Shown here piece after piece: positions 11,821 to 22,902 of a DNA stretch of 32,107 nucleotides. The DNA is from Thermoplasmata archaeon (lineage in GTDB: Archaea; Thermoplasmatota; Thermoplasmata; Lutacidiplasmatales; UBA184): contig JASHPZ010000032.1 of NCBI GenBank assembly GCA_030037815.1, positions 1-32,107 of the forward strand, in the 5' to 3' direction. Under the pieces are notes generated by a model. The model ran no database searches, was not told where the DNA came from, and saw only the letters and a program-made list of their open reading frames with translations. The first letter of the stretch is position 1. Each line of letters begins with the position of its first letter. The position numbers were made by a program, and so were the translations under genes.

Positions 11821-11937
11821 CTTATACTAGCGGGCGGTGACGCGGGGCGGGCTGTGGGGTCAGCCCCCGAGTCGCCCGCTCCAACGGGCGGCCGGGAACC
11901 GCAGCGCGCTGCCAATGACCCCTGCGAGGGCAGTGCG
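11821..11937 (+). promoter_or_regulatory. Structured leader copy 1 (candidate cis-regulatory RNA) with TATA-like ttatacta
   Basis: TATA-like 11822-11829. Hairpin GGGCTG-TGGGGT-CAGCCC (11849-11866); hairpin CGCCCG-CTCCAA-CGGGCG (11873-11890); GAACCGC (11896-11902); CTGCCAATGACCCCTGCGAGGGCAG (11909-11933); ATG at 11938. Loop GGGGT (11856-11860) is complementary to ACCCC (11918-11922). Confidence 0.65.
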
Positions 11938-12405
11938 ATGCTGGGGTACGTGGTCTCGAGGCCGCGCAAGAAGAGCGACGAACGATGGGAGGTCCGCGGC
12001 ATGCCCGCGGACCTTCGGCGTCGGCTGAAGTCGTGGGTCGACGTTGACGAAGTAGGAGCGGAGGGGCTCTGGCTCTGGTTGCGGGCGGTCGTGCCGCTGC
12101 TCCCGCAGCCGAACGGAGGCCCGCCACGGCGGGGCGTACTCCGCGGGAGAGCGGGACCGGACTCCCGCGAGCTCGAGCAACGGCTGATGGTATTCGCTCG
12201 GGAGAATTCGCGGTTGACCGTCCTCTGCAACCAGATCGCCCGCGACAACGAAGTGTTGGCCCGGCGGCTCCGGGCGATGGAGGCCGCGATCCGAACGCTC
12301 GAAATGGCCGGGGGCCGGATCGAGATCCCTCCGGACGCCGACATCCCGGAGGTCACCGGGCGCTACCTCGATCCGGATCGGGCGGGCCGCGACGGCCGGG
12401 CGTGA
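11938..12405 (+). CDS. Small coiled-coil protein, paralog A1 (unknown function)
   Basis: MLGYVVSRPRKK...PADLRRRLKSWVDVDEVGAEGLWLWLRAVVPLLPQP...NSRLTVLCNQIARDNEVLARRLRAMEAAIRT; clear homology to 20908-21345 (-). The start is placed at 11938 because the nucleotide-conserved leader ends there. Confidence 0.75.
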   Translation: MLGYVVSRPRKKSDERWEVRGMPADLRRRLKSWVDVDEVGAEGLWLWLRAVVPLLPQPNGGPPRRGVLRGRAGPDSRELEQRLMVFARENSRLTVLCNQIARDNEVLARRLRAMEAAIRTLEMAGGRIEIPPDADIPEVTGRYLDPDRAGRDGRA

Positions 12406-12444
12406 GCTCGAGCGGCCGACGCCTCGACGTCGTCCGGGGGATGG

Positions 12445-13041
12445 ATGCGGGTCGAGTTCGACCTACGCCCGCTCGCGCGGATCGACCGCATGTCGAAGTG
12501 GCCCCGCCTCGGGGTCGCGCTCGCGATCCTCGGCGCTATCGCCGTCGAGACCGTCTATCTCGCGGGAGAGACCGTCCGGGCGGTCGCGTCGGACGGCCCG
12601 GGCCGGTCCCTCGACTGGGTCAACGTGGCGTTCCTCGGAGCCACGCTGGCGTTCGTCCTGACGGGGGGTGCGTTGCTCCCGCGGCTCCTCCCGGGGGCGC
12701 AGGCCCTGTCGATCGACGAGGCGGGGCTCGAGCTCCGGTTTCCTCGGGGGGCGCCGGTGCGCGTCGGCTGGGACGATCCGCGCGGGTTCCGGCTCACGGA
12801 CCTCCGAACGGAGCCCGACGCCTCGGGGGATCTCCTCGCGGGCCGATTCAGCCGGGATCGCTGGAGGGACCGCCCGACGTTGCTGACGACCTCGGCGTTC
12901 GACGCCGTGGTCGAACACGCGACCCGACACGGCCTCTCCGGAGCTTCGGGTACCGGCCGGTGGTCCGCTGCGCCGACCACGCTGTGGTCGAAGAGTGCCG
13001 ACGCCCCGGCAACGACCGGAAGCGGCGGAGCCGACCGTTGA
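12445..13041 (+). CDS. Hypothetical protein with two TM helices and a soluble C-terminal domain (B1)
   Basis: Two hydrophobic segments (LGVALAILGAIAVETVYLAG, VNVAFLGATLAFVLTGGALLP) then LSIDEAGLELRFPRGAPVRVGWDD; similar architecture to 22201-22902. Confidence 0.6.
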   Translation: MRVEFDLRPLARIDRMSKWPRLGVALAILGAIAVETVYLAGETVRAVASDGPGRSLDWVNVAFLGATLAFVLTGGALLPRLLPGAQALSIDEAGLELRFPRGAPVRVGWDDPRGFRLTDLRTEPDASGDLLAGRFSRDRWRDRPTLLTTSAFDAVVEHATRHGLSGASGTGRWSAAPTTLWSKSADAPATTGSGGADR

Positions 13042-13144
13042 ACCCGGTGGAGCCCCCGCGGTGGCACGCTCGACGCGGAAAGCCCGGGTCGGTCGCCCGC
13101 GGTTGCGACGCGAGGGGGTTCCCGGACGACGCTACTCGTAAGTA

Positions 13145-13251
13145 GGGGCGGTTCATAGTTCGGGTCGGCGGAGGCGTCCGCCGGCTGGCCCCGCCAGCGA
13201 ACCGCCCCACCGGGCCAATGACGCCTGCTCCCCAAGAACGGAGTAGGCAAC
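13145..13251 (+). promoter_or_regulatory. Structured leader copy 3 (candidate cis-regulatory RNA) before the hydrogenase-like operon
   Basis: GGGGCGGTTC (13145-13154)/GAACCGCCCC (13199-13208); hairpin GGCGGA-GGCG-TCCGCC (13167-13182); hairpin GCTGG-CCCCG-CCAGC (13184-13198); GCCAATGACGCCTG (13214-13227); hairpin GCCTGCTCC/GGAGTAGGC (13223-13248); GTG start at 13252. Loop GGCG(T) is complementary to (A)CGCC. Confidence 0.65.
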
Positions 13252-14208
13252 GTGGACCCGACCGAACAGATCGTCAACGTCGTTCAGGCGGCGACCGTAC
13301 TCCTGCTCTCGCCGCTCCTCGCCGGGATCCTCGCCCGGGCCAAGGCGTGGACCGAGTCGCGGACCGGCCCATCCATCTTCCAGCCGTACTTCGACCTCGC
13401 GAAGTACCTCCGCAAGGAGACCCTGGTCCCGTCCGTATCGGGCGTGGTGTTCCGGGTCGCGCCGTTCGTCGCGTTCGGTTCGTATCTTCTCATCTCGGTG
13501 GTCGTCCCGATCATCACGCCGTACCCGATCCCGTTCGCGTCCACCGTCGATTTTCTCGGCGGCGGCCTGCTCTTCGGCCTCGCCGGCACGGTCACGCTCC
13601 TCGCCGCGATCGACTCGGGGAGCAACTACAGCGCCCTGGGCGCGAGCCGGACGGTCTCGTTCGCCGCGTTCGCCGAACCGACCCTGATCGTCGTCTTCTT
13701 CGCGGTCGCCGTGATCACAGGGACGAACAACCCGTACGTCACGAACAACCTCCTCGCGTCGTCGCTCTCCGCCTACCTCTCGCCGACCCACCTCCTCGTC
13801 ACGGCGGCCTTCTTCCTCCTGCTCCTCGCCGAGACCGGCAAGCTTCCGGTCGAGAGCGCCGGTCTGATGGAATTCGGCATGCTCGAGGACGGCCGGATTT
13901 TCGAGCACTCAGGGCGGCTCCTGGGGCTGTTCCGCTGGAACGGCTGGATGAAGCAGTTCCTCCTCTGCTCGGTGTTCCTCAACGTCTTCCTGATCCCGTG
14001 GGGCATGTTCTCCGCCCCGACCCTCGGCGGGGCCCTCGGCAACATCGCGATCCTCCTCGCGAAGCTCCTCCTCGTCGTCGTCGTGCTGGTGGTGGTCGAG
14101 GCGACGGTCGCGAAGGTGCGTTTGTTCAAGATCCGCGACTTCCTCGCGCTCTCGTTCTCGCTCGCCCTCCTCTCCGTGTTCGCGTTCGCCGTCCTGGGGG
14201 TGCCGTAG
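13252..14208 (+). CDS. HyfC/NuoH-like membrane subunit of the hydrogenase-like complex
   Basis: LLLSPLLAGILARAKAWTESRTGPSIFQPYFDLAKYLRKE; AETGKLPVESAGLMEFGMLEDGRIFEHSGRLLGLFRW, typical HyfC/HycD-type NuoH homolog. Confidence 0.92.
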   Translation: MDPTEQIVNVVQAATVLLLSPLLAGILARAKAWTESRTGPSIFQPYFDLAKYLRKETLVPSVSGVVFRVAPFVAFGSYLLISVVVPIITPYPIPFASTVDFLGGGLLFGLAGTVTLLAAIDSGSNYSALGASRTVSFAAFAEPTLIVVFFAVAVITGTNNPYVTNNLLASSLSAYLSPTHLLVTAAFFLLLLAETGKLPVESAGLMEFGMLEDGRIFEHSGRLLGLFRWNGWMKQFLLCSVFLNVFLIPWGMFSAPTLGGALGNIAILLAKLLLVVVVLVVVEATVAKVRLFKIRDFLALSFSLALLSVFAFAVLGVP

Positions 14209-14856
14209 GTGATCGCCTCGGACGAGGTGATCGCCCTTGTCGGCGTCGGGATCCTGCTCACCGCGCTCTACCTCCAGTCGGAATCGTTCGTCGACCCCCT
14301 GATCCTCGGCATCGCGGTCCAGTCGCTCCTCCTCGGCGTCCTGCTCGGCTGGCTGGCGTGGACCGAGCACAGCCTCGACCTGGCCGTGCTGGCCGGCCTC
14401 GCGGTCGCGGTCCGGGCGGTGTTCATCCCGTACGTGCTCCGGCGGCAGATCCGCGCGTTCCGCTGGCGGATCCGCGAGCGCCACGCCGCCCACCGCGTCA
14501 CCGGGCACGCCCTCGCCGCCGTGGCGGTCGCGATCATCGCCTGGTTCGTCTTCCAGCAGACGCTCGCCTCCGCGTTCCCCGAGGTCGGCGGCGCGCTGCC
14601 GTTCGTCCTCCTGCTGCAGGGGCTGCTGATGCTCGCCACCCGGGCGAACACGCTCGTCCAGGTGATGGGGTATCTCGAGGAAGAGAACGCGGTCGTCTAC
14701 GCGGGGGCCCTGTTCGCGCAGGGGTTCCCCCTCTTCGTTGAGGTGGTCGTCTTCCTCGACGTCTTGGGCGTCGTGCTGGTCGGCGTGATCCTGTCGATCC
14801 AGCGGGACGTCACCGGTACGCCGGAAGAGTCGCCCCTGGAGGAGTTGACCGGATGA
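14209..14856 (+). CDS. HyfE-like membrane subunit
   Basis: Multi-TM 215 aa, position between HyfC- and HyfF-like genes; RAVFIPYVLRRQIR; VQVMGYLEEENAVVYAG. Confidence 0.85.
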   Translation: MIASDEVIALVGVGILLTALYLQSESFVDPLILGIAVQSLLLGVLLGWLAWTEHSLDLAVLAGLAVAVRAVFIPYVLRRQIRAFRWRIRERHAAHRVTGHALAAVAVAIIAWFVFQQTLASAFPEVGGALPFVLLLQGLLMLATRANTLVQVMGYLEEENAVVYAGALFAQGFPLFVEVVVFLDVLGVVLVGVILSIQRDVTGTPEESPLEELTG

Positions 14857-16286
14857 CGATCGCGCTCGCGACCCTCGCACTCTACGGCGTGCTGGTCGCG
14901 CCGTCCGCCGCGGCGGTCCTGTCGGTCGCCCCGCGCGACCGCCTGAGCGAGCTCGCGGCCCGGGTCGGTTCGCTCCTCGCGTTCGCCGCCGCCGTCACCC
15001 TGCTCGCCCTCGGGGCGAACGGGACGTGGGGCCCGTACCTCGGGCTGGACGCGCTGAGCGAGGTCTTCCTCGTGATGATCACGGGGATCTACGCGACGTC
15101 GGCGTGGTACTCGAAGCGGTACCTCCGCTCGGTGCACCGCCCGTTCCTCACCCCGCAGGTGTACTACGCGCTCCTCAGCGCGTTCGCGTTCGCGATGGTG
15201 TTCACGCTCGTCGTGAGCGACCTCGGCCTGATGTGGATCGGCGTCGAGGCGACCACCGTCGCGAGCGCGCTCCTGATCGTGCTCGAGCGGAAGCCGACCA
15301 GCGTCGAGGCGGCGTGGCGGTACACGCTGATCGCGTCCGCGGGCCTCACGATCGCGCTGTTCGCGCTGATCCTCCTCTACAGCACGACGGGCACGTTGAA
15401 CGCGTTCGCGCTCGCCGCGCACGCGCCGCCCGCGACCCTGCCGATCGAGATGGCGGTCGCGCTCGCGCTGGTCGGCTACGGCACGAAGGTCGGGCTGTTC
15501 CCGATGCACACCTGGCTCCCCGACGCGCACTCGGAGGCGCCGTCGCCGGTCTCCGCGATGTTCTCGGGCGTGCTCCTCCCGACCGCGCTCTACGCCTTCC
15601 TGCGCGTCTACCGCGTGCTCGGAACGCCCGTCCCGTCCTCGATCCAGTACCTGGTCCTCGCCTTCGGGATCGCGACCGCGCTGGTCGCCGCGTTCCTCCT
15701 CCAGCGCCAGCGGTCGTTCAAGCGGCTGCTCGCGTACTCGAGCATGGAGGTGATGGGGCTCGCCCTGATCGGCATCGCCGTCGGCGGCGTCGCGATCTAC
15801 GGCGCGCTCGTCCTCGTCTTCGCGCACGCGTTCGCGAAGTCAGCCGCGTTCTATTCGGCGGGGAACGTCCTCCAGGCGCAGGGGACGACCCGGATCGACG
15901 AGCTCGGCGGGCTCGGCCGAACGATGCCGTGGACGGGCGCGGGCTGGCTGGTCGCCGGGGCGGCCGTCACGGGCGCCCCGCCGTTCGGGACGTTCCTCGG
16001 CGAGCTGCTGATCGTGGTCGGGGCGGTCCAAGCCGGCCTCCCGTGGGTCGGCGGGCTCGTCGTGGTCGCCATCCTGATCGCGTTCCTCGGCGTCAACTCG
16101 CAGATCGGCCGCATGGTCCTCGGCGACGCCCGCGGCCCGCCGGCGAGCGCGCCCCGTCGGGACGACGGGGCCGGGCTCATCTACCTCAACCTCGCCGTCG
16201 CGCTCGCGGTCGGCGTCGCGAGCTTGGCGTACCTTTCGCCCGCGATCGCCCATGCGGCCTCCGCGCTCGGAGGGGCGGGTCCGTGA
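14853..16286 (+). CDS. HyfF/NuoN-like proton-antiporter-type subunit
   Basis: Mrp/NuoLMN family: DLGLMWIGVEATTVASALLI (TM5 Glu), GYGTKVGLFPMHTWLPDAHSEAPSPVSAM (Lys), SFKRLLAYSSMEVMG, GAPPFGTFLGELLI. Confidence 0.92.
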   Translation: MTIALATLALYGVLVAPSAAAVLSVAPRDRLSELAARVGSLLAFAAAVTLLALGANGTWGPYLGLDALSEVFLVMITGIYATSAWYSKRYLRSVHRPFLTPQVYYALLSAFAFAMVFTLVVSDLGLMWIGVEATTVASALLIVLERKPTSVEAAWRYTLIASAGLTIALFALILLYSTTGTLNAFALAAHAPPATLPIEMAVALALVGYGTKVGLFPMHTWLPDAHSEAPSPVSAMFSGVLLPTALYAFLRVYRVLGTPVPSSIQYLVLAFGIATALVAAFLLQRQRSFKRLLAYSSMEVMGLALIGIAVGGVAIYGALVLVFAHAFAKSAAFYSAGNVLQAQGTTRIDELGGLGRTMPWTGAGWLVAGAAVTGAPPFGTFLGELLIVVGAVQAGLPWVGGLVVVAILIAFLGVNSQIGRMVLGDARGPPASAPRRDDGAGLIYLNLAVALAVGVASLAYLSPAIAHAASALGGAGP

Positions 16287-17605
16287 CCGCCGCCCCGTGG
16301 ACGGTCGCCGACCGCGACCCGTCGCCCTGGGAGACCGGGCCCGTCGCCGCGTACGGGGCGCGCGACGGGACGCTCACGCTCTACAACGACTACGCGAGCG
16401 GGCGCGCGATCCTCTGGCCCGGTCCCGCGGCCGGTCGGGCGTCCGAATTGGTCGCGCTGTGGAACCGGCGGGGGAACGCCGGCCGGCTCCGACCGGTCGG
16501 CCCCTCCGAGCCCGTGGAAGGGTACGGGGTGTTCACGTTCCCGTACGGCCCGATCTCGATGGGGGTGCCCGAGAGCGGCCGGTTCGACGTGCGCACGTAC
16601 GGCGAGCGGATCCTCGAGATCACGCCGACGGCGGGCTTCAAGGACCGCGGCATCCTGGCCGCGCTCGTCGGCCGCTCCGTCCCGGACGCGACCCTCGCGA
16701 TCGAACGGGTCGCGGGCCACCTCTCCGCCGCCCACGTCAGCGCCTTCCTCGCCGCGTGCGAGAGCGCCGAGGGCCGCGACGTCCCCACGACCGAGCTGTG
16801 GGTCCGCGCCCTCGCCCAGGAGCTCCAGCGGATCTACAACCATGTGCACGTGATCGCCCGCATCGCCGAAGCGGCGAGCCAGAACGTCGGGCTCGCCCAG
16901 ACCCACGCGCTCGCGGAGGAGGTGCTCCGCCTCCAGGCCGCCCTGTTCGGCCACCGGTGGATGTTCGGGGGTCTGGTCGACGGGGCCGCGCTGCGGAAGC
17001 TCGGTCCGCGGGAGCGCGACGCGGCGGCCGCCACGCTCCGGCGGCTGGCCGACCAGTTCGAGGAGCTGTGGACCCTCTTCCTCGATTCGAGGACGTTCGT
17101 CGACCGGATCCAGGCGACGTGCGTCGTCGACCGCGAAACGGCGCTCCGCTGGGGCGCCGTCGGCCCGACCTTGCGCGCGTCGGGCGTCCCGTGGGACGAC
17201 CGGCTTCGGCAGGCGGTCCCGCCGTACACCGACCTCTACCTCGAGCTCCCGAAGGAGTCCGACGGGGACGCGCTCTCGCGAGTCGTCGTCCGCGCCGAGG
17301 AGGTGCGGGCGAGCTTCCTCCTCCTCGAGCAGCTCCTGAGCCGGTGGAAGGGCGAGATCGGCGGCCGGGAACCGGCCGCACCGCCCGCCGCGCCGGGCCG
17401 TGGGCTGGCGCGCGTCGAGGCCCCGAGCGGGGACCTCGTCTACGACGTGACCGTGCGCGACGGGACGATCCGGCACGTCGGGATGCGCACCCCGAGCCAC
17501 GCGAATTGGCCCGCGTTCGCCGTCGGGCTCAAGGGCGGGGTGTTCACGGACTTCCACTTCGCCTACGAGAGCTTCGGGTTCTCCTTCGCCGAGACGGACG
17601 GGTGA
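16283..17605 (+). CDS. HyfG/NuoCD-like large subunit lacking NiFe-ligand cysteines
   Basis: ITPTAGFKDRGI...IERVAGHLSAAHVSAF...QRIYNHVHVIARIAEAASQNVG...RLQAALFGHRWMFGG...FTDFHFAYESFGFSFAE aligns with group 4 hydrogenase large subunits. GTG start at 16283 inside the longer ORF 15026..17605. Confidence 0.88.
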   Translation: MTAAPWTVADRDPSPWETGPVAAYGARDGTLTLYNDYASGRAILWPGPAAGRASELVALWNRRGNAGRLRPVGPSEPVEGYGVFTFPYGPISMGVPESGRFDVRTYGERILEITPTAGFKDRGILAALVGRSVPDATLAIERVAGHLSAAHVSAFLAACESAEGRDVPTTELWVRALAQELQRIYNHVHVIARIAEAASQNVGLAQTHALAEEVLRLQAALFGHRWMFGGLVDGAALRKLGPRERDAAAATLRRLADQFEELWTLFLDSRTFVDRIQATCVVDRETALRWGAVGPTLRASGVPWDDRLRQAVPPYTDLYLELPKESDGDALSRVVVRAEEVRASFLLLEQLLSRWKGEIGGREPAAPPAAPGRGLARVEAPSGDLVYDVTVRDGTIRHVGMRTPSHANWPAFAVGLKGGVFTDFHFAYESFGFSFAETDG

Positions 17606-17610
17606 TCTCG

Positions 17611-18357
17611 ATGCCGTCGTGGTTGGGACAGGCCGCGCGGCGCGGGCTGCTGACGAGCCGGTACCCCGTCGCGCCCGCGACACCCGCGGAGACGCCGGAA
17701 TCGGCCCGGCCCCCGCGGCCCTCCGGGAACTCCGGAGTGCCCGTCGCGGCGGTCGACGCCTGCCCGGTCCGGGCGCTCGAACCGTCGGGCGTGGACGACG
17801 GAAAGTGCATCCGCTGCTCCCGGTGCCTCGCGCACGGCCTCGGGTACTCGGGTCCGGTCGAAGCATCGGCCGCCACCCGCGACGCCCTTGTCTCGCGGGG
17901 CTCGGCCCCGCCGCTTCCGGCGGCGAAGCGTGCGCCGCTGGCCGACTTCGGGCGGTCGGTGCACGTGTTCCTGGTCGACGTCGGGAGCTGCAACGCGTGC
18001 AACCTCGAGGTGCTCGCGCTCGCGAACCCGTTCTACGACACGACCCGGCTCGGGATCTTCTTCACCAACTCGCCCCGGCACGCCGACGTACTGCTTGTCG
18101 TCGGCGTGCCCACGGAGGAGATGCGCGCGCCGCTCCTGCGCGCGTTCGAAGCGATCCCGAGCCCGAAGGCGGTCGTGGCGGCCGGCGTCTGTCCGATCAG
18201 CGGAGGGGTGTTCGCCGGCAATGCCGGCGTTCTCGGTCCGCTGAGCGACGTCCTCCCGGTTGACGTCTTCATCCCCGGTTGCCCGCCGACCCCGGTCAAC
18301 TTGATCGACGGTCTCCTCCGGGCCGCCGGCCGCTCCCGCCCGAGGGGGGGTGCGTAG
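17611..18357 (+). CDS. HyfI/NuoB-like small subunit with N-terminal half-ferredoxin domain
   Basis: DACPVRALEPSGVDDGKCIRCSRCLAHG then VDVGSCNACNLEVLAL...VVAAGVCPISGG...VFIPGCPPTPVNLIDGLL. Start ATG 17611 (or GTG 17602). Confidence 0.9.
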   Translation: MPSWLGQAARRGLLTSRYPVAPATPAETPESARPPRPSGNSGVPVAAVDACPVRALEPSGVDDGKCIRCSRCLAHGLGYSGPVEASAATRDALVSRGSAPPLPAAKRAPLADFGRSVHVFLVDVGSCNACNLEVLALANPFYDTTRLGIFFTNSPRHADVLLVVGVPTEEMRAPLLRAFEAIPSPKAVVAAGVCPISGGVFAGNAGVLGPLSDVLPVDVFIPGCPPTPVNLIDGLLRAAGRSRPRGGA

Positions 18358-18358
18358 G

Positions 18359-20359
18359 ATGGACCTCCTCGGAGGCGTCCTGACGGCCGCGACCGTCGGG
18401 TTCTTCGCGGCCGCGGGGACCGGCGCCGCGCACCGGACGGCCGGATACGCCGTCGCGCTCGCGGCCTCCGTCCTCCTGTTCGTGGCGTCCGTCGGAGCGC
18501 TCGCGTTCGGAGGCGCCCACGGGATCGCGTGGGTCGGACCGCTGGGGGAGACCGAGTCGCTCGCGCTCGACGGGCTCTCGGCGTTCTTCACGCTCGCCGC
18601 GTCGATCGTCTGGATCGCGACCTCCGCCTACTCGATCTACTACGACGACCAATCCTCCTCGCTCCTTTCGGTCTTCTACGGCCTGACCCTCGGCGCGATC
18701 GCGCTCCTCATCGCGTGCACCTCGTGGGTCTACTTCCTCGTCGGCTGGGAGACGATGACGCTCGCCTCCTACGGGATGATCCTGCAGGCGCGCGGTCCCT
18801 CCGGGCGCGTGTTCGATGCGGCGTTCGTCTTCCTGGCGTTCGGCGAAGCGAGCACGCTGTTCGTGCTCGTCGCGGTCGCCGGTCTTCGCTTCGCGTCGGG
18901 GTCGTTCCTCGAAGCGGCGGTGAGCTCGGGAGGTATCCTCCCGTCGGTGGTGTTCGCGTGCGCCCTCGTCGGCTTCGGGCTCAAGATGGGCGTCGCGCCG
19001 TTCCACATGAGCGAGTGGCTGCCGATCGCGCACTCGTCGGCCCCGTCGAACGCGTCGGCGGTGCTGAGCTCGACCTTGACGCTGGCGGGCGTCTACGGGC
19101 TGTTCCGGGTCTTGAGCGTCCTCTCGGGCCCCCCGATCTGGTGGGGCGCGGTGACGCTCGGGATCGGCGCCGTGTCGGTCCTCCTCGGCGCGCTGTTCGC
19201 CTCCGTGAGCGAGCACACGAAGGGACTCCCCGCGTACAGCACGATCGAGAACAACGGCCTCGTCCTGGTCGCGCTCGGAATCGCGCTCATCGCCCGCGCG
19301 GACGGACTGACCGACCTGATGGTGTTCGCGCTGTTCGCGGCGTTCTACCAGGCGCTCGCGCACGCGCTCGCCAAGACGGCCGTCTTCCTCGCCGCGGGCT
19401 ACGTCGAGCACTCCGCCCACACGTTCGACCTGAACTCGATCCGCGGACGCGTCAAGGGCTCGGACCCGGCCGGCTTCGCCGGGACCGTCGCGGCGGTCCT
19501 CAGCCTCGCCGCCGCGCCGCCGCTCGCCGGGTTCGTCAGCGAATGGATGATCCTCGAGGCGCTGTTCCAGTCGTACCGGTTCACCCCGCAGGCGACGCAG
19601 TTCATCGGCCTGGTCGCGGGGGCCGCGGTCGCGCTCGCGGCGGGCCTCATCCTGGTCGCGATGGTCAAGTTCCTCGGGTTCACGCTACTCTGGAAGCCGG
19701 CGCCGGGCGACACGGCCCGGCCGACCCGCGGGCTGGGGGTCCCGATCGCGTTCGTCGGCGCGGTGGTGCTCGGGATCGGCGTCGGCGCCCCGTGGGTGCT
19801 CCGGTTCGTCGCCCCGTCGGTCGGCGCGTTCCTCGGAACCCCCGTGGCCGCCCCGGTCGGAGGGCTCCTCTCCGTCCCGAACGGATGGTCCATCCTCTCG
19901 GGATCGCCGTTCGGCATCCTCTCGCCGCCCGTGATCCCGCTGGCGCTCGCGGCGGGCGGGGCCGTCGCGTTCGGCTACTACGCGCTCGGTCGACGGGCCG
20001 GATCTCGGCGGGTCCCGACGTGGATGGCCGGGAGCCCGGAAGGTCGGCCGGGCGAGACGTACAGCTCGTTCGGGTACAGCACGGGCATCCGCATTATGAT
20101 GGACTCCGTCTTGTGGACGCGAGAGATCCGGACGCGGTCGGGTGACGTCACGACCGCGGGAATCGCGAGCCCGGCGGTCTACAACGTTGAGCTCGAGGTC
20201 TTGGATGTGTTCAAACTGTTCTACGACCGACTGGTACGGTTCGGGGACGCGGTCGCGTTCGGACTCAAGCGCGCCGTGATGCCCGGACGGCTCGGTCAGT
20301 ACCTCGTCTACGTGCTGTTCGCCACGCTGTTCGTCGTGATCTACGTCGCAGCTGCATGA
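18359..20359 (+). CDS. HyfB/NuoL-like antiporter-type subunit
   Basis: VYFLVGWETMTLASYGMIL (Glu), GFGLKMGVAPFHMSEWLPIAHSSAPSNASAVLS (Lys), AAPPLAGFVSEWMILEALFQ; about 666 aa with a long C-terminal part as in HyfB. Confidence 0.92.
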   Translation: MDLLGGVLTAATVGFFAAAGTGAAHRTAGYAVALAASVLLFVASVGALAFGGAHGIAWVGPLGETESLALDGLSAFFTLAASIVWIATSAYSIYYDDQSSSLLSVFYGLTLGAIALLIACTSWVYFLVGWETMTLASYGMILQARGPSGRVFDAAFVFLAFGEASTLFVLVAVAGLRFASGSFLEAAVSSGGILPSVVFACALVGFGLKMGVAPFHMSEWLPIAHSSAPSNASAVLSSTLTLAGVYGLFRVLSVLSGPPIWWGAVTLGIGAVSVLLGALFASVSEHTKGLPAYSTIENNGLVLVALGIALIARADGLTDLMVFALFAAFYQALAHALAKTAVFLAAGYVEHSAHTFDLNSIRGRVKGSDPAGFAGTVAAVLSLAAAPPLAGFVSEWMILEALFQSYRFTPQATQFIGLVAGAAVALAAGLILVAMVKFLGFTLLWKPAPGDTARPTRGLGVPIAFVGAVVLGIGVGAPWVLRFVAPSVGAFLGTPVAAPVGGLLSVPNGWSILSGSPFGILSPPVIPLALAAGGAVAFGYYALGRRAGSRRVPTWMAGSPEGRPGETYSSFGYSTGIRIMMDSVLWTREIRTRSGDVTTAGIASPAVYNVELEVLDVFKLFYDRLVRFGDAVAFGLKRAVMPGRLGQYLVYVLFATLFVVIYVAAA

Positions 20360-20458
20360 GACGGACGGACCTCCGGTCCTCCCCCGCTCGGATGGAGTTC
20401 CGGGGCCCGCCGAGCCCTGCGTCGCCTCGGGTCGGCGTGCCGGGGATTCACCCAGTGC

Positions 20459-20911
20459 TCACGGTATGACTAGTACGGGGCGGGGGGACCGCCCGACGAC
20501 CGCTTCGGACACCGAACCCAAGGTCATTTTTCGCGCCCCGCGGAGTCCGCGAGTACCGATCACGATCAGGTCGGCGTCAACCTCCTCGGCCGCCGCGAGC
20601 ACGACTTCGACCGGGGGACCCTCGCGGATCCACACCTCGACCTTGCACGTGCGACGGTTCGCGGACTGGCGAAGCGCCTCGAGGCCCCGCGAGATCGCAG
20701 TCGTCTCGGTCGCTCGCTCCTCGTCGGGCCGTGGCTCGGCCACGGTGAGGGGGGCGGAGGTCGCGTAGACGAGCCACACCTCCATCGGTGGGTCGGTGAC
20801 CAGACGGAGCGCGAACCGCGCCGCTCGATTGGCGGACTCCGAGCCATCGTACGCTACGACCAGTCGGCGAGGGGTCCGCTCCAGCCAGGCCGCGGGGGCC
20901 GACGTGCTCAT
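20459..20911 (-). CDS. Universal stress protein (UspA family)
   Basis: RRLVVAYDGSESANRAARFALRLV...ADLIVIGTRGLRGARKMTLGSVSEAVVGRSPRPVLVIP, a canonical Usp nucleotide-binding motif. Confidence 0.95.
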   Translation of the reverse strand: MSTSAPAAWLERTPRRLVVAYDGSESANRAARFALRLVTDPPMEVWLVYATSAPLTVAEPRPDEERATETTAISRGLEALRQSANRRTCKVEVWIREGPPVEVVLAAAEEVDADLIVIGTRGLRGARKMTLGSVSEAVVGRSPRPVLVIP

Positions 20912-21345
20912 ACCCCGCCCCGAGGCAAGTAGCGGTCCAGAGCGGCGGGCTCGCCGGACTCCTCGTTAACTTCGGCTCCCTCTGCCGCAAGCCTGCGGGT
21001 CCGGATAATCGACTCGAGCGCCTTCACCCGGCGGGCCAGATCCTGATTGTCTCGGAAGTACTCGTCGCACGTCACGGTCAACCGCGCTCGGTCACTCTCG
21101 CAGGCCACCAAGGCAGATGCGAGCTCGTGCACACGCTGTTCGCCGGTCGAGACTGCCAACGGAAATGGGAGATCGCCGCTGGCCGGCAGGGGAAGGAGCG
21201 GAACCATCCGCTCGAGCCACAACCAGAGTCCGGCCAGTCCCACGGCGTCGACGTCAATCCATGGAGCCAGTCGGTGCCGCAACTCAACTGGTACGATGTT
21301 CGCTCCCGAACCGCCCCCTGGCCCGATCGATATGGCTTCCGGCAT
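20908..21345 (-). CDS. Small coiled-coil protein, paralog A2 (unknown function)
   Basis: MPEAISIGPGG...VELRHRLAPWIDVDAVGLAGLWLWLERMVPLLPLP...RARLTVTCDEYFRDNQDLARRVKALESIIRT; paralog of 11938-12405. Stop overlaps the Usp start (ATGA). Start at 21345 set by the end of the conserved leader. Confidence 0.75.
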   Translation of the reverse strand: MPEAISIGPGGGSGANIVPVELRHRLAPWIDVDAVGLAGLWLWLERMVPLLPLPASGDLPFPLAVSTGEQRVHELASALVACESDRARLTVTCDEYFRDNQDLARRVKALESIIRTRRLAAEGAEVNEESGEPAALDRYLPRGGV

Positions 21346-21450
21346 CGTGACTGCCCCAGGGGTCATTGGCAGCACGCTGCAGTTCGAGCCGCGAAGGCCC
21401 CGGCTGACCCCTCAGCCGCAGTGAACAGGAGGTCCCGTTGGTATTTGTCG
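21346..21450 (-). promoter_or_regulatory. Structured leader copy 2 (candidate cis-regulatory RNA), minus strand
   Basis: Minus strand: TATA-like CAAATACC (about 21440-21447), hairpin CGGCTGA-GGGG-TCAGCCG (21418-21401), GGGCC-TTCGC-GGCTC, GAACTGC, GCTGCCAATGACCCCTGGGGCAG (21373-21351), ATG at 21345. Loop GGGG is complementary to CCCC. Confidence 0.65.
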
Positions 21451-22200: not shown

Positions 22201-22902
22201 GTGGCTCCGGTTGCAACTGTTGCGGCCACATATGTTAGACTTCTTGAGCCGACGCCCTTGTATTGGAGCGAGCCCCTGTACGACCCGTCATCGGCCAAAG
22301 GAGCAGCGCAGCGATTCGACCTCGTGGAGTACGCTGAGTCGAGCCTACCACGACGTCGGCGCATACGGACCGTAACGTCGATCCTCACCGCAGGGTCGGT
22401 AGTCGGGATTTGGTCGGTATTCTTCGGCGGTCTTAACACGGGGCCGTCTGGAGAGCTCGGCCTCTACCAAATCTTCTTCGCCGGCTTTGTCGTTGAGTCC
22501 GCAATCGCCGTCCTTTTTGGCGGAATAATTTTCCAAGCGTGGGCGCCACAAGCGACGTCCCTGTCGGTTGACTCGGACGGTATGACCCTCGAGACTTCTA
22601 ATCACGCTGTGTCTCGTATAAATTGGAAATCCAGGTTTGACTCAATACGGATTTCAATCGGCGATGTCGATGCGGGGGGGCCCGCTGCCTTTCGCTGCGC
22701 TATGCTGGTTCACCAGGGAGGGTTGGAGGGCCTCACGCCATGGCACAAACTTGTCCCGCTCACCTACCTTAGCGAGGCCGCGGCGAATTGCATACTAAGA
22801 CGCGCCAAGGAGGCCGGATTGTACATCCTCAAGGTTCCAATGGGCCGGCCGCTTGCTGGCAATCGATTCACTGAGGGCGTCCAATACACATTGACAGGCT
22901 AG
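22201..22902 (+). CDS. Hypothetical protein with two TM helices and a soluble domain (B2)
   Basis: TM segments VTSILTAGSVVGIWSVFFGGL and YQIFFAGFVVESAIAVLFGGIIF, then LSVDSDGMTLETSNHAVSRINWKSRF. Start codon uncertain (GTG at 22201). Lower GC than its neighbours. Confidence 0.55.
   Translation: MAPVATVAATYVRLLEPTPLYWSEPLYDPSSAKGAAQRFDLVEYAESSLPRRRRIRTVTSILTAGSVVGIWSVFFGGLNTGPSGELGLYQIFFAGFVVESAIAVLFGGIIFQAWAPQATSLSVDSDGMTLETSNHAVSRINWKSRFDSIRISIGDVDAGGPAAFRCAMLVHQGGLEGLTPWHKLVPLTYLSEAAANCILRRAKEAGLYILKVPMGRPLAGNRFTEGVQYTLTG

Follow-up and report, generated by a model that had tools for sequence, protein, structure and literature searches.

The operon and its neighbours

The window analysed here, the whole stretch of 32,107 nucleotides taken from a Thermoplasmata archaeon (contig JASHPZ010000032.1), contains a six-gene operon on the forward strand with a small gene on either side, and the same ordered set of elements recurs in three leaders, at 11849-11923 (+), 13166-13226 (+) and 21418-21358 (-). 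They precede, in this order, a small gene that starts at 11938 (+), the operon, which begins at 13252 (+), and a second small gene with its start at 21345 (-). The operon opens with a NuoH/HyfC-like membrane subunit (13252-14208 (+); PF00146, E 6.6e-34), followed on the same strand by a HyfE-like membrane subunit (14209-14856; Hydrogenase 4 membrane subunit model, E 1e-11, below the cut-off), an antiporter-type subunit similar to HyfF and MrpD (14853-16286; PF00361, E 2.6e-55), a NuoD-like large subunit (16283-17605; PF00346, E 2.1e-29), a NuoB-like small subunit (17602-18357; PF01058, E 4.5e-26) and a second antiporter-type subunit, similar to HyfB and NuoL (18350-20359; PF00361, E 8.8e-34). 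The cluster cysteines are kept in the NuoB-like subunit, where CIRC and CNAC are both present, and this protein also has an N-terminal cysteine cluster.

The large subunit has no CxxC nickel ligands. The motif is absent from 16283-17605 and was not seen in 24 orthologues, drawn from several families, over the part that could be aligned, and the operon therefore encodes an Ehr-like, nickel-free complex rather than a hydrogenase or a formate hydrogenlyase. Ehr complexes are defined as group-4-related, with the Ni/Fe ligands absent and Mrp-like antiporter subunits present (PMC6349859), and this is what the operon encodes; the two Ni/Fe-binding CxxC motifs by which the large subunit of a group 4 [NiFe] hydrogenase is recognised are absent. 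The label hydrogenase-like, given to the operon in the preliminary description, is appropriate at the level of the fold only, as an operon whose large subunit lacks CxxC does not encode a true hydrogenase.

The two small genes encode paralogs A (155 aa; 11938-12405 (+)) and B (145 aa; 20908-21345 (-)), which are 41% identical to each other. Neither of them was assigned to a Pfam or NCBIfam family above cut-off, and of the relatives sampled only members of this genus had such paralogs. A gene for a universal stress protein (20459-20911 (-); PF00582, E 1.6e-29) overlaps paralog B at its end, and in several relatives a cassette of leader, paralog and universal stress protein gene converges on the end of the operon. 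A gene without assigned function at 12445-13041 (+), located between leaders 1 and 2, is weakly similar to an ORF at 22201-22902 (+), on the far side of leader 3 (29% over 66 aa, E 4e-5 in a single comparison).

Three leaders with a common order of elements

A pattern scan of the whole 1.57 Mb genome found exactly three exact copies of the core CCAATGACNCCTG, all of them within the window, and no occurrence of the reversed CCAATGACNCCTG pattern. The common order of elements noticed earlier in the three leaders is thus real and, judged by its core, confined to them in this genome. An A/T-rich TATA-like box lies about 22-27 nt 5' of the first stem (P1); in leader 1 it reads TTATACTA (11822-11829 (+)), identified from its sequence and from A/T-rich columns kept in relatives. 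The box is kept in relatives for each class of leader, with columns that reach 100% A/T among 44 paralog and 23 operon leaders, which means that the mRNA starts at the aptamer or very close to it. That the motif is conserved as coding sequence was considered and rejected, in agreement with the preliminary description, because the start codon of copy 1 is in a different frame from the ATG inside CCAATGAC.

Aptamer 1 (11849-11923 (+)) begins with P1 (11849-11853/11862-11866), which closes the loop L1 (11854-11861) with G6 at 11854, and continues through an inserted hairpin to AACCGC (11897-11902), the second stem P2 (11901-11904/11909-11912), C38 (11913), the pseudoknot strand (11918-11922) and U48 (11923). 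The corresponding elements of aptamer 2 (13166-13226 (+)) are P1 at 13166-13170/13179-13183, L1 at 13171-13178 with G6 at 13171, the inserted hairpin at 13184-13198, AACCGC at 13200-13205, P2 at 13204-13207/13212-13215, C38 at 13216, the pseudoknot strand at 13221-13225 and U48 at 13226. On the reverse strand, aptamer 3 (21358-21418 (-)) has P1 at 21418-21414/21405-21401 and L1 at 21413-21406, with G6 at 21413, C38 at 21368 and U48 at 21358.

The leaders as a divergent fluoride riboswitch

Judged from sequence, the three leaders are a divergent form of the known fluoride (crcB) riboswitch, RF01734, and not a new class of RNA. The order hairpin - AACYGC - hairpin - YRAUGACNCCU, with a 3' strand that pairs with the first loop, is that of the fluoride riboswitch. 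P1 and P2, with AACYGC between them, are present in all three copies and both stems covary, and A40, U41, G42 and U48, which comprise the linchpin pair and metal-site nucleotides (the A40-U48 pair is described in PMC8752731), are kept in all three as well.

At gathering scores, Rfam gave no match to any of the three leaders. A permissive search aligned copy 2 with all 64 positions of RF01734 (25.5 bits, genome-wide E 4.4e-5) and placed copy 1, with 16.5 bits, in a shifted register, because the RF01734 model reads the inserted hairpin as P1; copy 3 had no RF01734 match even in this search. The low scores are explained by the inserted hairpin together with the G6/C38 change. Since all copies stay below 34 bits, the curated gathering score of RF01734, a default Rfam scan misses the three, and we file them as a divergent variant rather than as standard members of the family. 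A model (R1) for which 34 aptamers were used, all from other genomes and none from the window, finds all three, with 64.7 bits (E 2e-15) for copy 1, 58.2 bits (E 1e-13) for copy 2 and 55.8 bits (E 4e-13) for copy 3, and its next-best match reaches only 12.8 bits. Among relatives, RF01734 matches above the cut-off are common (26 of 101 genomes, and 106 of 400 members of the class).

The preliminary description had proposed a previously unrecognised cis-regulatory RNA, with a pseudoknot between loop and 3' strand, that joins the operon to the two paralogs. The RNA, its pseudoknot and the connection between the three units stand, whereas its novelty falls with the crcB fold, the conserved nucleotides and the gene association; the comparison with Rfam, which had been put forward as a test of that novelty, led to RF01734, though only below the gathering score. 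The crcB motif was described by Weinberg in 2010 (PMC2864571) with mutS and formate hydrogen lyase genes already listed behind it, so that the gene association itself is not new; formate hydrogen lyase genes behind the motif are also documented in PMC11139923.

The pair 6-38 and the inserted hairpin

All three copies in the window carry G6 and C38. The solved Thermotoga aptamer (PDB 4ENC) has a long-range reversed Watson-Crick pair between A6 and U38 (PMC11586693), and a 6-38 pair is also documented for the Bacillus cereus RNA (PMC10687018). Over 163 clean aptamers, i.e. the fetched loci that remained after removal of obvious false positives, the letters at positions 6 and 38 are AU in 87 cases, GC in 75, AC in one and GU in none, from which it follows that the pair covaries at the level of its letters; both positions were unconstrained in the search. 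Most of the G/C cases descend from one change in a single family (f1). A second, independent double change is found in another family, where one aptamer (L125) has G/C and that of a congener (L120) has A/U, with the same operon behind both. The sole aptamer with a mixed A6/C38 combination (L068, in genome G057) has no clear gene start behind it. The same alternation between G-C and A-U is shown by the reversed pair 15-48 of tRNA.

In effect, nature provides here a double mutant of a riboswitch whose structure is solved, with A-U changed to G-C at the long-range pair beside the fluoride pocket. There are at least two independent cases of the swap, and the leader illustrates why such copies escape a default Rfam scan. 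Affinity or specificity could differ where this pair is altered.

The variant also differs by an inserted hairpin, variable in sequence, that separates P1 from AACYGC. When GTDB species representatives were scanned with the paralog-type leader pattern, 46 stretches were obtained, 43 of them in Thermoplasmata MAGs; the other three, which are bacterial, lack the P1 hairpin and were rejected as chance matches.

Genes behind canonical and variant aptamers

The first gene of the operon, encoding the NuoH-like subunit, is also found behind canonical A6/U38 riboswitches in other families (34 leaders; the families include f11, f15 and f19), with the same gene order downstream. Orthologous operons behind canonical copies make fluoride the likely ligand of the variant as well. 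Other canonical copies precede genes for CrcB (16), Kef-type antiporters (6), a dynamin-like GTPase (7) and MutS-like proteins (6). The GTPase, of about 500 aa or more, has a canonical riboswitch 15-20 nt 5' of its start in six cases from the same genus (L044, L050, L058, L063, L064 and L065).

In family f15, a protein of 109-121 aa with a coiled-coil-like character is encoded directly behind a canonical riboswitch (L045, L204, L209, L212, L244 and L247). The L045 protein was not assigned to any NCBIfam family, and a kinship of this small protein with the paralogs of the window, considered as a candidate, was unsupported (profile comparison probability 1%). In another case (L104), an aptamer with G6/C38 lies directly 5' of a universal stress protein gene, with no small paralog between them. 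In one genome (G058), CrcB follows a canonical copy and a small paralog follows a G/C variant (L056 and L152), and the operon is absent, which indicates that the association of the paralogs with the operon is not exclusive.

The variant might be a riboswitch class of its own, in which the same scaffold, with G6/C38 and the inserted hairpin, senses a ligand other than fluoride or responds to another range of fluoride. Such a specialisation would fit the close match between form and gene class within the genus, where leaders of CrcB, Kef and GTPase genes are all A/U and those of the paralogs are G/C in 44 cases versus A/U in one, and it would fit the coexistence of canonical and variant copies in some genomes (e.g. 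G012 and G014), before different genes. We nevertheless consider it unlikely, given that the orthologous operon lies behind canonical A/U copies in other families, that the operon is preceded by an A/U copy in the genome that is sister to the independent G/C one, and that the change at 6-38 keeps the pairing and leaves positions 40, 41, 42 and 48 as they are. Fluoride thus stays the likely ligand of all three leaders.

Comparative evidence for the structure

The proof of the structure is comparative and does not come from the folding of single sequences, which beats chance only in copy 2 (z -3.3, against -1.1 for copy 1 and 0.0 for copy 3). All five pairs of the pseudoknot are formed in 30 of 30 variant sequences, and its pair 10-45 covaries, appearing as GC, CG or AU. 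In these sequences, 96.8% of the cells are paired, a percentage biased upwards by the descriptor with which the aligned sequences were picked, as it required P1, P2 and most of the pseudoknot, and there are 43 double-change cells compared to 14.9 in shuffles. When canonical and variant sequences were taken together (36 sequences), 97.2% of the cells were paired, with the same upward bias, versus at most 57% in slid controls, and double-change cells numbered 102 versus 32.5 in shuffles; compensatory changes then also appear at pseudoknot pairs 9-46 and 12-43. The pair 6-38 was outside the descriptor.

The pseudoknot between loop and 3' strand is accordingly confirmed. A correction concerns the GGCG/CGCC contact, which had been assigned to copy 3: it is carried by copy 2, before the gene at 13252, and copies 1 and 3 have GGGG/CCCC.

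A wholly new class of cis-regulatory RNA, similar to the fluoride riboswitch by convergence, is the reading implied by the preliminary description, and both the silence of Rfam at gathering scores and the failure of the permissive search on copy 3 would suit it. It is however most improbable, as copy 2 matches RF01734 over its full length, relatives provide continuous intermediates, many of them above the cut-off, and the same gene stands behind canonical copies. If the repeated element were instead an operator in the DNA, bound by a regulator of the cluster, its position just 3' of TATA-like boxes, a place where archaeal repressors often bind, would be in keeping; but this is hardly credible when stems and pseudoknot covary to the extent given above and an inserted hairpin, itself changing in sequence, sets the two halves at varying distances.

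A predicted translational switch

In the operon leader, the minimum free energy structure has an alternative 9-bp stem (13223-13231/13240-13248 (+)) with the strands GCCTGCTCC and GGAGTAGGC. It uses positions 45-48, which also belong to the pseudoknot, and covers the GGAG ribosome-binding site (13240-13243), eight nucleotides 5' of the GTG. Of the 23 G-type operon leaders, 21 keep such a stem with a length of at least 7 bp; in other families, the stem of most canonical operon leaders is shorter or missing. The fluoride-stabilised pseudoknot is thus incompatible with the hidden binding site, and translation is therefore predicted to be ON with fluoride.

According to this model, fluoride, which three Mg2+ ions hold in the known class, would fix the pseudoknot that L1 forms with the 3' strand, and the long-range pairs 40-48 and 6-38 would cap it. 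Without fluoride, the 3' strand of the operon leader could instead form the 9-bp stem that hides GGAG; with fluoride, the ribosome-binding site would be freed and the operon translated. The product of this switch would be a membrane complex that is nickel-free and of the complex-I/Mrp-like (Ehr-like) kind. The other two copies would control the two small paralogs, one of them together with the universal stress protein. A common long platform stem was looked for in the paralog leaders and not found; in some of them the 3' strand of P2 pairs with GGCAG ahead of the start, and in the remaining ones the binding site merely sits directly behind the pseudoknot strand. The last hairpin of the leaders, previously described as one conserved element, does not hold up as such: in copy 2 it is the 9-bp stem over GGAG, and in copies 1 and 3 it would be built with the 3' strand that also belongs to P2.

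CrcB exclusion and a possible role of the complex

Among 400 genomes of the class, many of them incomplete, CrcB (PF02537) is present in 77 and the NuoH of the operon in 104, and both occur together in none (20 expected). The same holds within the five genera that have both states in different species, where no overlap was found versus 5.5 expected (genus-stratified P 2.8e-4), and the pattern is thus not only one of inheritance between families. A match to RF01734 at E 1e-4 is found somewhere in 93 of the 104 operon genomes, and three further operon genomes (G013, G019 and G039) have an R1 match just 5' of NuoH. Proteins of the CLC family are present in many operon genomes; their motifs did not place them in the fluoride type.

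It is probable that the complex serves fluoride stress where CrcB/Fluc is absent, by ion pumping, by balancing pH and charge and perhaps by extruding fluoride. Fluc is passive and needs a membrane potential that is positive outside (PMC11139923, PMC3755343). One explanation is that the complex may replace Fluc where a passive channel would not help. More specifically, a nickel-free Ehr-like complex could be an energy-driven fluoride resistance system that replaces CrcB/Fluc in Thermoplasmata, with the two riboswitch-controlled paralogs as an addition in this genus, a proposal that we put forward tentatively and that may well prove wrong. In a 2024 review, the link of the riboswitch to formate hydrogen lyase was read as a metabolic shift (PMC11139923). 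The missing nickel site and the exclusion of CrcB make a role of the complex against fluoride directly testable, and the gene context may be a more interesting lead than the leader itself.

Taken as a whole, we are fairly sure of a joint reading in which divergent fluoride riboswitches lie at the 5' ends of the mRNAs, the operon leader is predicted to act in the ON direction and the complex probably serves fluoride stress.

Comparison with known systems

The leaders share with RF01734 a P1 with an 8-nt loop, AACYGC, P2, a 5-bp pseudoknot and the nucleotides A40, U41, G42 and U48, as well as the site at the mRNA 5' end and genes of the formate hydrogen lyase type behind it. They differ in L1, which is G[UA]GGNGUC instead of the canonical AUGGNGUU, in having G6-C38 for A6-U38, in the extra hairpin between P1 and AACYGC and in their scores below the gathering cut-off. 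As far as we have checked, the new features are the variant itself, the missing nickel site, the two riboswitch-controlled small paralogs and the exclusion of CrcB; neither fluoride control nor CrcB exclusion was found described for Ehr complexes.

The operon has the subunits NuoH, HyfE, HyfF, NuoD, NuoB and HyfB, two of them Mrp-like antiporter subunits, in common with Ehr complexes, group 4 [NiFe] hydrogenases and formate hydrogenlyase, and is set apart from the latter two by a large subunit without the CxxC nickel ligands. CrcB/Fluc, a classic gene behind fluoride riboswitches, is found in this genus behind canonical copies. In contrast to this passive channel, which was found in none of the 104 operon genomes, the complex encoded in the window would be energy-driven.
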